From: Calditrichota bacterium
Lineage (GTDB): Bacteria > Zhuqueibacterota > Zhuqueibacteria > Zhuqueibacterales > Geothermadaptataceae
Assembly (NCBI GenBank): GCA_008501765.1
Contig: QQUE01000007.1
Coordinates: forward strand, 124,001-188,000
Reading direction: 5' to 3'
Length of the DNA: 64,000 bases
Under the pieces are notes generated by a model. It was given only the letters and a program-made list of their open reading frames with translations. It did not search any database and was not told the DNA's origin. The stretch's first letter is position 1. Each line of letters starts with the position of its first letter. A program made the position numbers and the translations under genes. Below, in pieces: positions 8,011 through 12,958 of this stretch.

Positions 8011-8196
8011 TTATTTCTCGAATGAGCAGTAAAATATATTGAGTGATAGTAGAATATGGTAACTTGACCCGACTTGATAATTTTTCCTGTGTGTTTTCAA
8101 GCGTAACATTATTTTAAATTAAATTCAACTTGATTTTAATAGGCCAGCCAATTAATTAGGACGATAGAAATATGAATTAAATAAAAGGAGTTGCTG

Positions 8197-9309
8197 GTGC
8201 CATATCCCCAATTTGATAGAAAAAAAATACGTGTAAAAACGTTATCAATGCGAGAAAACAAGGTCAATATAGAAAAAGATTATGTACGATTGAATCAAAA
8301 ATCTGAGAATTATAGCGAACTTTTTAATATTCGAGTAAACGAAGTCATTGCGCGGATTCAAAATGCGCGAAATAAAAATGCTCCGGTTATGTTGACTTTT
8401 GGAGCGCATTCGATAAAAAATGGTTTAGGACCCGTTATAATCAAATTGATGGAGCAGGGATGGCTCACCCATCTCGCAACAAATGGAGCGGGAATCATCC
8501 ATGATTGGGAGTTCGCTTTTCTGGGGGAGAGCAGCGAAGATGTTCGTGGAAATGTGGAACGAGGCGAATTTGGCATATGGCAGGAAACCGGGTATTTTAT
8601 TAATCTGGCTATTATTGTCGGAGCTTTTGAAGGAAAAGGCTATGGCGAGTCGGTCGGCAGCATGGTTGAAAAGGAAGGCGTTGAAATTCCATCGGAGAAA
8701 AAATTGCGCCAAATTGCTGAAAATTCAGATAAAAACATGCTGGATCAGGCTTCCGCCGCGCTCGATTTGTTAAACACGATGAAGCAGTTTGAAATTGAGC
8801 CCGGTTGGTTGAAAATACCATTTCCGATGAAAAAATATTGTGTTCAAGCTGCGGCCTTCAAACTTGGGATTCCGTTTACCGGACACCCAATGATCGGACA
8901 TGATATTATTTATACACATCCGCTTAATTCATGCAGTGCAATTGGCAGGACGGCACAACGCGATTTTTTAACTTTTGCCCATTCTGTGAACCGCCTGGAA
9001 AATGGTGTATATATGTCGGTCGGCTCAGCAGTGATGTCGCCAATGATTTTTGAAAAATCACTATCCATGGCGCAGAATTTACATATCCAACATGGAAAAC
9101 ACATTGATAATCATTATATGCTGATCGTTGATTTGGCAAAAAGTGAATGGGATTGGCAAAAAAATGGCGAGCCACCACCAAGTGATCCCGGATATTATTT
9201 ACGCTATTTAAAAACATTCAGTAGAATGGGCGGAACGATGAATTATTTATCCGCTGATAATAGAGATTTTCTTTTAGCGATTTACCATGGATTGAATGAT
9301 TTATCGTAG
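8197..9309 (+). CDS. Conserved protein with deoxyhypusine-synthase-like pattern
   Basis: A 370-residue cytoplasmic protein. I chose the GTG at 8197, six bases after AAAAGGAG; a TTG at 8191 lies against the Shine-Dalgarno. The segment reading GAHSIKNGLGP, then LMEQGWLTHLATNGAG and HDWEFAFLG, recalls the NAD-binding core of deoxyhypusine-synthase-like proteins (a loop after a strand, then THLATNGAG with an acidic residue downstream). The C-terminal half has GHPMIGHDI, SVGSAVMSPMIFEKSL and DPGYYLRYLKTF. Bacteria generally lack eIF5A, so a true deoxyhypusine synthase role is unlikely; a Rossmann-type enzyme acting on another substrate is more plausible. I do not recognise a specific function. Genes on both sides give no clear pathway. 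Confidence 0.6.
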   Translation: MPYPQFDRKKIRVKTLSMRENKVNIEKDYVRLNQKSENYSELFNIRVNEVIARIQNARNKNAPVMLTFGAHSIKNGLGPVIIKLMEQGWLTHLATNGAGIIHDWEFAFLGESSEDVRGNVERGEFGIWQETGYFINLAIIVGAFEGKGYGESVGSMVEKEGVEIPSEKKLRQIAENSDKNMLDQASAALDLLNTMKQFEIEPGWLKIPFPMKKYCVQAAAFKLGIPFTGHPMIGHDIIYTHPLNSCSAIGRTAQRDFLTFAHSVNRLENGVYMSVGSAVMSPMIFEKSLSMAQNLHIQHGKHIDNHYMLIVDLAKSEWDWQKNGEPPPSDPGYYLRYLKTFSRMGGTMNYLSADNRDFLLAIYHGLNDLS

Positions 9310-10697: not shown

Positions 10698-10727
10698 TTG
10701 ATCAATTTTCACTTTAAATTGTATAAT
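10698..10727 (+). promoter_or_regulatory. Predicted sigma70-type promoter of the heme/TlpA operon
   Basis: TTGATC at 10698-10703 and a perfect TATAAT at 10722-10727 are separated by 18 bases, giving a start near 10734, about 33 bases before the lipoprotein ATG. The -10 is a consensus match in an otherwise AT-rich gap, so chance occurrence is possible. Confidence 0.5.
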
Positions 10728-10766
10728 TGAAACCAAAATCAAATAATGTTTTATAAAAGGATTGAA

Positions 10767-11075
10767 ATGGCAAGATTAAGTGGAATACTATTGGTATTGG
10801 TTTCATTGCTGGTTATGGCATGCGATCCACCATTTATGAGCGCAGAAAAGGTGGGCCCACCATCCGATCATAAAGTTAAAAAGGGCACGGCAAAACACAA
10901 AAGTGGCCTCGACGAACCGTTTTCAGTCAAGGCAGAATGCAGCAATGCAGAATGCCACGGACCTGAATTAAAAGGCGATATTGCTGTAACAGATCGAGGA
11001 TTGGTAAAAACACCGTCCTGTTATCAATGCCACGGGGAAAAATGGGATGATGACGATGAGGAAGAAGATGATTAA
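10767..11075 (+). CDS. Small lipoprotein with two c-type heme-binding motifs
   Basis: A 102-residue lipoprotein: hydrophobic N-terminus with lipobox LLVMAC, lipidated Cys 19. C85-x2-C88-H89 is a standard c-heme motif; C58-x4-C63-H64 is an expanded version. H35 and H44 could be distal ligands. The last ten residues after Trp93 are almost all Asp/Glu. It is probably a membrane-anchored periplasmic electron carrier. The ATG at 10767 has AAAGGA eight bases upstream; an upstream in-frame ATG at 10746 lacks one. The gene heads a four-gene operon and its end overlaps the thioredoxin gene. Heme attachment is predicted, not shown. Confidence 0.72.
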   Translation: MARLSGILLVLVSLLVMACDPPFMSAEKVGPPSDHKVKKGTAKHKSGLDEPFSVKAECSNAECHGPELKGDIAVTDRGLVKTPSCYQCHGEKWDDDDEEEDD

Positions 11076-11610
11076 GTCAATTTTAATGGATATGAATCCG
11101 TTTTTTAAAGCACACCTTTTTTTTAAAAAAACTTTTCGGGTTTTTCTGATAATTTCTTGCCCTTTGTATGCCCAAAACCCGGGAGAAATGGCTGTTCCAT
11201 TTACAGCAACAACGCTGGAAGGGGATAGCATTCGTTTAGCGGACTTCAAAGGTGAAATTGTGATTTTGGACTTTTGGGCCAGTTGGTGTGCGCCTTGTTT
11301 AAAAGAGATGCCATTTCTTATAGAAATTCAGGAAAAATATCGCGACCAAAATTTGGTGGTCATAGCTATCAATTTAGATAACAATAAAAAAAATGCGGTG
11401 AGATTCCTGAAGAAGATTGGCAAAGACATTCCCTTCCCAATAATTTTTGATAAAAACAAAGAATTGCCAAAATTATATATACCTGCTGCAATGCCAACCA
11501 CTATTTTTATTGATACAAAGGGCGCGATTCGATACCGGCATAATGGGTTTAAGGAAAGCGATAAATCCTCTTTTATCACTGAAATTGAAAAATTAGTTAA
11601 GGAGAAATAG
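11068..11610 (+). CDS. TlpA-like thioredoxin-fold thiol-disulfide oxidoreductase
   Basis: About 180 residues. The active site WCAPC is at 73-77 and the cis-Pro loop is in AAMPTTIFID. An N-terminal hydrophobic segment ends in LIISCPLYAQ, which could be either a lipobox (Cys 31) or a type I signal peptidase site, so the protein acts in the periplasm. TlpA/ResA-type proteins reduce disulfides, often on apocytochrome c heme motifs. I chose the ATG at 11068, where AGGAAG inside the acidic tail of the preceding gene acts as Shine-Dalgarno; upstream ATGs at 11047-11056 are alternatives. It overlaps the heme lipoprotein by 8 bases, consistent with translational coupling and a shared redox role. Confidence 0.88.
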   Translation: MIKSILMDMNPFFKAHLFFKKTFRVFLIISCPLYAQNPGEMAVPFTATTLEGDSIRLADFKGEIVILDFWASWCAPCLKEMPFLIEIQEKYRDQNLVVIAINLDNNKKNAVRFLKKIGKDIPFPIIFDKNKELPKLYIPAAMPTTIFIDTKGAIRYRHNGFKESDKSSFITEIEKLVKEK

Positions 11611-11820
11611 ATGTTGAAAGTTTTTGTTTTACTTGCACTTGCCATACTATTTTCCAGTTGTGCTGCCGTAAAACCCTGGGAAAGAGAAAAATTAGCAGAC
11701 CCGATTATGATATTTAATGAAAATCCGATCGATGCCGGAATTCAGGAACATTTTATTGAGCACAGGGAAGGTGCTGCGGGAGCAACCGGCGCGCAAAGTG
11801 GGGGCTGTGGTTGTGGATAA
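11611..11820 (+). CDS. DUF4266 small lipoprotein with Cys-rich C-terminus
   Basis: A 69-residue lipoprotein with lipobox FSSC (Cys 17). VKPWEREKLADPIM at 20-33 and a Gly/Ala-rich tail ending GGCGCG (Cys 66 and Cys 68) match the DUF4266 family. Function is unknown. In my recollection the family is usually found beside DUF3570 and TlpA-like genes, as here. The C-x-C tail could be a redox partner of the preceding thioredoxin or a metal-binding end; that is inference. It starts directly after the TlpA-like stop codon and its own stop overlaps the GTG of the next gene. Confidence 0.85.
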   Translation: MLKVFVLLALAILFSSCAAVKPWEREKLADPIMIFNENPIDAGIQEHFIEHREGAAGATGAQSGGCGCG

Positions 11821-12958
11821 AAACTGGTTTTTTACTCTTTTATTCGTGTTATGCCTACCAGGTCTAATTATCGCACAAGATGTTCCACAAAACGAAATTC
11901 AAGCAAATATGAGCGGATATGCTGATAATTTTGGTGTGGTGGTTTTATACCCGAACTTTTCGATTACACGCAAAGTTTCAGATGGAACATCATTCAACGG
12001 ACGTTTTCTCGTGGACGCAGTGAGTGCGGCTTCAACAAAAAGCCGTTTCGAGGTAGATGGTGTAACATCTGCGACTTCAAGAGAAAACGGCGGCGCGGAT
12101 AATACGCCTGATGATTTGCGATTTCAGTTTGGTGGCGGTGTGAATCATAATTTTGGTGACCGAACGGCGGTTCTCAATCTTTTATACAGTACTGAACATG
12201 ATTACACATCAACGACGATAACGGGAAATTTCATTCAGCCTCTCGCTCAAAATAATACAATCGTGCAAGTTGGATTTGTTCGCAGTATGGATAAGGTTTT
12301 CCCGCAAACACGCTTCTGGAAAAGAGATTTAAATGTGACCACTGCAACTTTTCAAATCACACAAAATCTTACACCACGAACTGTTGTGCAGGCCATTTAT
12401 TCGCACACAAAGAATTCAGGGCACTTGTCGGATAATTATCAGGTTGTAACAGTACCCACGACAACCGATGTCGTTTACATGGAGCCAATCCACCCGAATT
12501 CGCGTATTCGACGCGCGGCTGCGACCCGTTTAAATTACCACATTTTTACGCGATCATCCGTGCAACTGGGTTATCGTTATTATTGGGATGACTGGGAAGT
12601 CAAAGGGCATACAATTTCTACTCTTTTCCAAACTTATATTCGTGATGAAAGTATCATCGGTGTCGGTATCAGGACCCACCAGCAATCCAAAGCGGAATTC
12701 TTTAAAAAATCTTACACAATTGATGATGAGTTAAGGACAGTCGATCCAAAATTGGATGGTGCTTCGGCGGTAGATCTGCAATTGAAATTATCTTTTCCAA
12801 AATTTCCGTTTGTAAAATGGCTTCCAGCCAACGAAAATCTTAAATATCAATTTGCGCTGAATTGGTACCGGCGGGAGACAGATTCAGCCGATTGGCACAG
12901 CCGGTTAAAAACGCTATACGCTTACAATTTTAATTTTGGCGTACGCTATCATTATTAA
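11813..12958 (+). CDS. DUF3570 protein, probable outer-membrane beta-barrel
   Basis: A 381-residue protein. The GTG at 11813 gives a clean signal peptide (MDKNWFFTLLFVLCLPGLII, then AQ) and an 8-base overlap with the DUF4266 gene; the frame stays open upstream to 11717 but without a signal there. The mature part begins with a conserved YADN segment and continues in alternating polar/aromatic strands ending in NFGVRYHY, an aromatic C-terminus typical of outer-membrane barrels. DUF3570 has no established function. Its constant company with DUF4266 suggests a common envelope complex. It is the last gene of the operon; a hairpin follows at 12996-13037. Confidence 0.82.
   Translation: MDKNWFFTLLFVLCLPGLIIAQDVPQNEIQANMSGYADNFGVVVLYPNFSITRKVSDGTSFNGRFLVDAVSAASTKSRFEVDGVTSATSRENGGADNTPDDLRFQFGGGVNHNFGDRTAVLNLLYSTEHDYTSTTITGNFIQPLAQNNTIVQVGFVRSMDKVFPQTRFWKRDLNVTTATFQITQNLTPRTVVQAIYSHTKNSGHLSDNYQVVTVPTTTDVVYMEPIHPNSRIRRAAATRLNYHIFTRSSVQLGYRYYWDDWEVKGHTISTLFQTYIRDESIIGVGIRTHQQSKAEFFKKSYTIDDELRTVDPKLDGASAVDLQLKLSFPKFPFVKWLPANENLKYQFALNWYRRETDSADWHSRLKTLYAYNFNFGVRYHY

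Follow-up and report, generated by a model that had tools for sequence, protein, structure and literature searches.

Gene clusters that combine ApbE, DUF3570, thioredoxin-like and DUF4266 genes were described as "DsbD systems" by Méheust et al. (2021, PMC8238504). According to that paper, the DUF3570 protein of C. luteolum is covalently flavinylated by ApbE at two sites, VIT1 ferrous-iron transporters occur in 25 DUF3570-type clusters, and the role of DUF3570-based flavinylation "remains uncertain" as of 2021. This means that a sequence-only reading of the present DNA, according to which neither DUF4266 nor DUF3570 had an assigned role, was out of date. In the literature searched, the two families were named by this paper only, and its text nowhere mentions nusg, barrel or porin. 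In the parts consulted of a 2024 follow-up (PMC11334425), flavinylation substrates are placed in the outer membrane, among other locations, and DUF3570 is not named; its authors might thus conceivably have regarded DUF3570 as an outer-membrane protein already. Furthermore, in the Pcc/Mtr conduits (PMC4245776) an outer-membrane barrel and a c-type cytochrome are encoded in one operon, and transfer across the outer membrane is proposed.

The locus described here lies on the + strand of the window, that is, the whole stretch of 64,000 nucleotides that was analysed. It shares with the DsbD systems a DUF3570 protein with two motifs, a DUF4266 protein with a C-x-C tail, a thioredoxin-like partner, and the presence of ApbE and DsbD within one genome. 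It differs in that the first gene of the operon encodes a putative diheme lipoprotein, the thioredoxin is of the AhpC-TSA/TlpA type instead of Thioredoxin_7, and ApbE and DsbD are not clustered with the locus: three of the four components of a DsbD-type cluster are local, and ApbE is found in two copies elsewhere in the genome. What is new is the cytochrome-bearing version of the known DUF3570/DUF4266 cluster, which is undescribed within the literature searched. The features are as follows.

10746..11075, + strand: putative diheme c-type cytochrome lipoprotein (alternative ATG at 10767)
10821-10823, + strand: cytochrome lipobox Cys
10869-10871 and 10896-10898, + strand: presumed distal His codons of the cytochrome
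10938-10958, + strand: C-x4-C-H of the cytochrome
11019-11033, + strand: C-x2-C-H of the cytochrome
11047..11610, + strand: TlpA/ResA-like exported thioredoxin (likely start ATG 11068)
11284-11298, + strand: W-C-A-P-C of the TlpA protein
11611..11820, + strand: DUF4266 small lipoprotein (DUF4266 profile match)
11659-11661, + strand: DUF4266 lipobox Cys
11806-11808 and 11812-11814, + strand: Cys codons of the DUF4266 terminal C-G-C (tail SGGCGCG)
11807..12958, + strand: predicted DUF3570 outer-membrane beta-barrel (mature from about 11876)
12014..12034, + strand: predicted flavinylation motif 1, D-A-V-S-A-A-S (acceptor Ser codon 12032-12034)
12056..12076, + strand: predicted flavinylation motif 2, D-G-V-T-S-A-T (acceptor Thr codon 12074-12076)

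The four open reading frames were listed as 10746-11075, 11047-11610, 11611-11820 and 11717-12958. The start of the DUF3570 gene is probably GTG 11807 or 11813 and not 11717; GTG 11807 is favoured, and with it a signal peptide lies directly behind the start. With ATG 11068 as the start of the TlpA gene, the cytochrome and TlpA genes overlap by 8 nt; the TlpA and DUF4266 genes touch end to end (11610/11611), and the DUF4266 and DUF3570 genes overlap by 14 nt if GTG 11807 is used. The reading frames and their joins thus confirm the earlier description of four exported genes that overlap or touch. The locus is flanked by genes for an MFS protein, a TPR protein and translation, and no recognisable electron acceptor or dehydrogenase gene was found near it.

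The arrangement exceeds chance, since the order recurs in other phyla. Eighteen loci from KSB1/Calditrichota and several other phyla follow the order cytochrome–TlpA–DUF4266–DUF3570–NusG_II(Tat)–ApbE (type A). DUF3570 is present in all 18, the cytochrome in 16 of the 17 with upstream DNA in which it could be evaluated, and TlpA in 15/17. In addition, a NusG_II protein with a Tat-like signal, which the DsbD systems do not share, accompanies 15/18. Co-occurrence in other genomes, on which the sequence-only reading had staked its proposal, was therefore observed, together with ApbE in the cluster (13 of 17 evaluable loci) and, in one locus only (L055), with multiheme neighbours. A search for the cytochrome among 82 genomes gave matches in 13. 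All seven strong matches (E < 1e-40) adjoin a type-A DUF4266 gene; five of the six weaker ones come from genomes in which DUF4266 has no match, and the sixth is on a different contig from DUF4266. Most DUF4266/DUF3570 clusters of the Bacteroidota-like sample have no cytochrome at all, so the cytochrome is an accessory and not a core part of the DUF4266/DUF3570 system.

The mature window cytochrome contains exactly five Cys and four His residues. The lipobox Cys, the four heme Cys and the four His are invariant in 13/13 aligned relatives; that is, besides the His of the heme motifs, exactly two more His are invariant. The protein at the same operon position in L125 and the stand-alone relatives have two canonical CxxCH motifs. 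The C-x4-C-H of the window protein is considered to be a credible heme site because exactly two extra His are invariant and relatives have C-x2-C-H at this place. Judged from its sequence, this exported protein, with two heme-binding motifs, proximal His and candidate distal ligands, would be a diheme c-type cytochrome: two hemes are well supported, and their attachment to the lipoprotein seems likely. This assignment is independent of curated models, all of which score below their cut-offs (Cytochrome_C7, 15.3 bits against 24.8; TIGR01904 CxxxxCH/CxxCH, 19.6 bits against 27, which leaves the protein outside the latter family). When solved structures were searched with a profile of the aligned cytochromes, nothing was found up to E 5; the AlphaFold model, with a mean pLDDT of 65.5, was poor as well, so that the cytochrome was given no fold assignment.

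The DUF3570 protein matches PF12094 with 116 bits (Pfam gathering cut-off 25). Its AlphaFold2 model (pLDDT 82.1) consists of 16 long strands forming a barrel. Among the VIA-align matches listed are BcsC (6tzk; Z 19.7, rmsd 3.9, 292 aligned), PelB (9h80; Z 19.6, rmsd 3.2, 255 aligned) and a PgaA-type protein (4y25; Z 19.6, rmsd 3.2, 253 aligned); OmpG is also among the matches. The model thus has the even strand number and the fold match to solved barrels that define an outer-membrane beta-barrel, and the earlier proposal of such a barrel is borne out at the level of prediction. No MtrB-type porin-cytochrome barrel is among the 50 VIA-align matches listed, which is not evidence of its absence.

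The two predicted flavinylation motifs of DUF3570, which the sequence-only reading did not notice, are the mechanistic core of the system. Both D-x-x-[ST]-[AS]-A-[ST] motifs, the form of which was taken from an ApbE review (PMC12052999), are present in all 16 type-A DUF3570 proteins tested. The window motifs read SAAS and TSAT against [S/T]GA[S/T]; a Gly to Ala change in the motif lowers flavinylation according to the same review. In the model, both motifs are in one loop between strands 3 and 4 of the predicted barrel. Loop lengths and the usual porin topology would place this loop on the extracellular side. Most of it is modelled at pLDDT < 50, so the model is compatible with a loop in the lumen as well as at the surface.

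The DUF4266 protein matches PF14086 with 72.2 bits (cut-off 27) and ends in the C-x-C tail of this family, which was found in 71/71 distinct C-termini. The TlpA protein matches AhpC-TSA with 84.4 bits. Its top NCBIfam match is ResA (107 bits, below the cut-off of 170) and its gene is directly behind that of the cytochrome; it might accordingly be a dedicated ResA/CcmG-like apocytochrome reductase for the heme cysteines, in a cytochrome-TlpA module only loosely tied to DUF4266/DUF3570. However, 27 of 30 Chlorobia-like DUF4266 loci have a TlpA-type gene but lack a heme motif in the surrounding 1.5 kb or so, and the type-A locus L141 keeps the cytochrome without TlpA. Reduction of heme motifs by the thioredoxin, as suggested before, is therefore possible but is not the general role of TlpA, and the dedicated-reductase explanation is improbable. 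Acquisition of iron, in which a surface flavin would reduce Fe(III), the barrel would admit Fe(II) and the heme and thiol proteins would give electrons, is less so, although still rather unlikely: the VIT1 genes reported by Méheust et al. and the channel-sized predicted barrel are consistent with it, whereas the window locus has neither a metal transporter gene nor a siderophore gene next to it, and none stood out by eye among the neighbours in the type-A loci listed.

It should also be considered that the system is decaying or unflavinylated in the window's genus and that the four genes do a simpler thiol/heme task. NusG_II was not found anywhere in the window's genome, and neither the window locus nor that of its congener L030 has an ApbE gene next to it. 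Against this, neither acceptor motif is lost in the window, L030 or L056, where the remainder of DUF3570 is intact as well. ApbE genes are present in the window's genome (the two copies mentioned above), and each of the four other genomes checked, among them those with L030, L027 and L055, has ApbE too. Decay seems the least probable of these explanations, and in this genus DUF3570 may well be flavinylated in trans. The best ApbE of the genome, confirmed by Pfam, is behind genes that we take to be NqrA-F-like. Joint relocation of NusG_II and ApbE was rejected on account of this position and of the lack of NusG_II in the genome.

The best explanation, to which we give a probability of roughly 60%, is a hybrid heme/thiol/flavin envelope electron-transfer path, namely a form of the DUF3570/DUF4266 flavinylation system that includes a cytochrome. 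The electron path of the sequence-only reading is retained in it; its alternative, a metal path, has nothing direct in its favour beyond the VIT1 remark of Méheust et al. The gene order, its conservation, the conserved motifs, the predicted barrel and the ApbE, DsbD and cytochrome-assembly genes of the genome were computed here, and the flow of electrons, its direction and its acceptor are inferred. Reducing power would enter the periplasm via DsbD and the TlpA protein, and/or come from the quinone pool via other cytochromes. A full DsbD (DsbD_N, DsbD_TM and Thioredoxin_7 in one protein) is encoded on another contig of the genome. The same genome has three Cytochrom_C_asm matches and 25 cytochrome-c7-like stretches. 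Two presumably lipid-anchored proteins would pass electrons to DUF3570: the diheme lipoprotein and the DUF4266 lipoprotein, whose Gly-rich tail carries the terminal C-x-C. The strand 3-4 loop of DUF3570 in the 16-strand barrel would bear two FMNs attached by ApbE. From these flavins electrons might reach an acceptor located at the outer membrane or beyond it; they might also move in the reverse direction.

The conserved operon thus pairs a protein of a flavinylated family with a dedicated cytochrome, and the barrel prediction places the two predicted flavin sites together in a single long loop. The question of what DUF3570-based flavinylation does can hence be addressed directly, through the location of the flavins and their reduction by heme or thiol proteins. 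If surface flavins were confirmed, KSB1, Calditrichota and other poorly cultured groups would gain a trans-outer-membrane electron route that heme-based surveys miss.

A bolder version, which we regard as quite unlikely, is a new type of outer-membrane conduit. Two covalent FMNs would be on an outward DUF3570 loop, modified by ApbE before barrel insertion, and the C-x-C tail of DUF4266 would be a swinging thiol arm threaded into the barrel, linking the periplasmic TlpA and diheme lipoprotein to the surface flavins. In such a conduit flavins and thiols would do what hemes do in the multiheme porin-cytochrome wires. The favoured path, a variant of the flavinylation system, resembles the Pcc/Mtr conduits in architecture. 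A large multiheme cytochrome fills the barrel there, whereas the window cytochrome is a small lipoprotein with two heme motifs, and the window barrel is itself a predicted carrier of covalent flavins.

The C-x4-C-H motif had been called unusual in the sequence-only reading. The motif is not exotic: it is present twice in Desulfovibrio cytochrome c3 (PMC10454114), and the NCBIfam domain TIGR01904 takes its name from CxxxxCH/CxxCH. The window protein has C-x4-C-H followed by C-x2-C-H in common with TIGR01904 and the class III cytochromes, differing in its score below the TIGR01904 cut-off. Tandem copies are found there, whereas type-A cytochromes have a single module; the exception is L066, a 392-aa form in which the same module is repeated, with 11 CxxCH.

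The exported four-gene cluster proposed in a sequence-only reading is present in the window, as follows.

10746-12958, + strand: four exported genes (lipoprotein with two heme motifs, TlpA-like thioredoxin, DUF4266 lipoprotein, DUF3570 protein), every join overlapping or abutting
11807 (GTG), or 11813, + strand: the better start of DUF3570

The TlpA protein (AhpC-TSA, 84.4 bits), the DUF4266 protein (72.2 bits) and the DUF3570 protein (116 bits) matched their Pfam models above the cut-off; the first protein matched cytochrome models below the cut-off only. The longest ORF of DUF3570 starts at 11717, within DUF4266. The GTG at 11807 (or the start at 11813) is the better one, because the signal peptide comes directly after it; the mature part begins at about 11876. 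On the 5' side of the locus are an MFS protein and a bacterial protein (8191-9309) with weak matches only, to deoxyhypusine synthase. On the 3' side is a TPR protein, followed by what we take, from the usual gene order and the sequence, to be rimP-nusA-infB. The genome assembly is 5.9 Mb, and its relatives carry the labels candidate division KSB1, Calditrichota or Caldithrix.

This locus probably (about 0.6) encodes a variant, with a cytochrome, of the electron path based on DUF3570 flavinylation. DUF3570 and DUF4266 had been said to have no assigned role. This does not hold after Méheust et al. (2021; PMC8238504): ApbE attaches flavin to a DUF3570 protein at two sites, and DUF4266 belongs to described clusters with ApbE, DUF3570 and a thioredoxin-like protein (PF13899). 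Of such clusters, 285 included DsbD, and 316 had the other four components and no DsbD nearby; their function was left open. NusG, barrel and porin are absent from the text of PMC8238504, and the available part names no cytochrome for these clusters. The system itself is known, and its cytochrome version is new as far as the literature searched goes.

In the window's phylum, DUF4266 was found at 22 places in 17 of 82 genomes, and the surroundings of all 22 (the window and 21 loci) were inspected. Seven are of the window's kind, here called type A (cytochrome-TlpA-DUF4266-DUF3570, usually with a NusG_II protein and ApbE). Twelve (L034, L036-L043, L045-L047) have instead a cytochrome of 625-660 residues with two heme motifs and constitute a second cytochrome-bearing cluster type. 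The middle domain of hydrazine synthase alpha was matched in L037 (7108-9033; 74.5 bits) and L043 (7189-9066; 73.9 bits), the two run against Pfam; similar proteins occur in the other ten. TlpA-DUF4266-DUF3570 adjoin these genes, often with a T9SS-tailed NHL-repeat protein, and their DUF3570 retains one flavin motif only. L035 has the canonical Thioredoxin_7-ApbE-DUF4266-DUF3570 arrangement; in L032, where DUF4266 lies at the contig end, and in L044 no heme-motif ORF was seen.

In a second scan, the alignment of type-A DUF4266 was run against contigs from one genome per species and gave 15 loci. Six of them have contigs as long as those of earlier loci and were taken as the same places; nine are new: Calditrichota (two), Kapabacteria, Gemmatimonadetes, Ignavibacteriaceae (two), Eisenbacteria, Chloroherpetonaceae and Latescibacterota. 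The phylum of L066, another scanned locus, contributed two further type-A loci, L125 and L141. The cytochrome is present in 16 of the 17 type-A loci with upstream DNA (18 in all; absent from L062, L067 truncated). This count is not circular, because the scan chose type-A DUF4266 tails and not the cytochrome. TlpA is found in 15/17 (absent from L062 and L141), DUF3570 in 18/18, and NusG_II in 15/18 (absent from the window, L030 and L055). The expected co-occurrence with ApbE was borne out in 13 of 17 (absent from the window, L027, L030 and L055; the contig of L062 ends). The NusG_II protein (L028:7389-8075 and 14 other loci; PF07009 in the three tested) has a twin-arginine-like signal and is encoded 3' of DUF3570, usually before ApbE. 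A profile of seven whole type-A cytochromes matched 13 of the same 82 genomes. Those with E < 1e-40 coincide exactly with the seven type-A loci. Six matches are weaker, and regions were fetched for four of them: five fall in genomes in which DUF4266 was not matched, and the sixth (in genome G080) is not on the contig of DUF4266.

In contrast, most of the DUF4266 loci inspected from the phylum of L066 (82 of 296 genomes drawn have DUF4266) are without a cytochrome. Fifty were inspected, the best-scoring 30 (short) and 20 longer ones picked among lower scores. A TlpA-type gene adjoins DUF4266 in 27 of the 30 short loci, and none has a heme-motif ORF within the ≤3 kb covered. Most of the longer loci are Thioredoxin_7-ApbE-DUF4266-DUF3570; besides the two of type A, L144 has a hydrazine-synthase-alpha-like cytochrome, and L138 has a Haem_bd protein (PF14376; 3101-3562) near such a cluster. 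The core therefore consists of DUF4266 and DUF3570 plus a thiol protein and ApbE, and the cytochrome is a lineage-specific addition outside it.

All 13 aligned cytochromes keep the lipobox Cys, both heme motifs (C-x4-C-H and C-x2-C-H) and exactly two His besides. They are the window's and those of the 12 second-scan loci that fit a search pattern which itself required these residues (L066 does not fit; in L062 and L067 the gene or the DNA is missing). The same invariants appear in the unbiased alignment of the seven whole proteins. The mature window lipoprotein has five Cys and four His, which can all be assigned: one Cys to the lipid and four to heme, two His as proximal and two as presumed distal ligands. 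It is likely to carry two hemes. C-x4-C-H had been called unusual; it is already known from cytochrome c3 (PMC10454114). The operon cytochrome of L125 has two C-x2-C-H, and the operon head of L066 (6221-7399) encodes a 392-residue multiheme version, with 11 C-x2-C-H in repeats of the same module. The window's genome has three matches to Cytochrom_C_asm and 25 cytochrome-c7-like stretches.

The question posed for DUF3570 was whether or not it is a FLAVINYLATED barrel. The AlphaFold model from 16 sequences has 16 long strands (mean pLDDT 82.1) and matches solved outer-membrane barrels full-length (PelB, PgaA-type, BcsC, OmpG; Foldseek, VIA-align), and thus the model supports the outer-membrane barrel suggested earlier. 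Both flavinylation motifs lie within residues 47-67, where strand 3 ends and the loop towards strand 4 follows; pLDDT there is mostly below 50. In outer-membrane barrels the extracellular loops are usually longer than the periplasmic turns. Here the motif-side loops total 111 residues versus 33 on the opposite side, with the N-terminus counted as periplasmic; by this asymmetry, the flavins would lie on the outer face or reach into the lumen from that side. Both motifs are present in 16/16 type-A proteins tested (a set without L125 and L141), as D-x-[VIL]-[ST]-A-A-S and D-G-[VI]-[ST]-S-A-[ST]; the window has DAVSAAS as the first and DGVTSAT as the second. In the published form of the motif, D-x-x-[S/T]-G-A-[S/T], Gly-to-Ala is reported to reduce modification (PMC12052999). 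The DUF3570 protein of PMC8238504 was obtained from an insoluble pellet, which is weak evidence for a membrane protein.

The mature DUF4266 protein is about 50 residues long; it has a lipobox, and its tail is rich in Gly. A C-x-C tail closes each of the 71 distinct C-termini gathered (41 GGCGCN, 17 GGCGCG, 12 GGCACN, 1 GCGCAK). Its gene is immediately 5' of DUF3570 in most loci inspected; exceptions include L041-L043, L046 and L109, with DUF3570 upstream. The protein may serve the barrel as a redox arm or as a partner in its assembly.

Next to the cluster there is neither NusG_II nor ApbE, in the window as in its congener L030; nor does NusG_II occur anywhere else in the window's genome. ApbE is present there in two copies, and in at least one copy in 4/4 further genomes checked (G028, G082, G069, G068). 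A DsbD that has the N-terminal, the membrane and the Thioredoxin_7 domain is encoded on another contig. With ApbE and DsbD encoded elsewhere, flavinylation of the window DUF3570 in trans is possible. DsbD/TlpA, the cytochrome network or both would supply electrons to the lipid-anchored DUF4266 and diheme lipoprotein; these would pass them to the flavins of the barrel, and the flavins to an acceptor at the outer face. The carrier order, direction and acceptor are clearly less certain than the assignment of the locus, and a surface-flavin conduit is the bolder reading.

In the Calditrichota locus L055 (12742-15988), two proteins with about 20 CxxCH each are encoded a few kb 3' of the type-A cluster. 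The cytochrome module also occurs, with two canonical CxxCH, in small stand-alone lipoproteins (L093:6166-6408, L094:1874-2137), and the gene in L093 adjoins glycosyltransferase-like genes.
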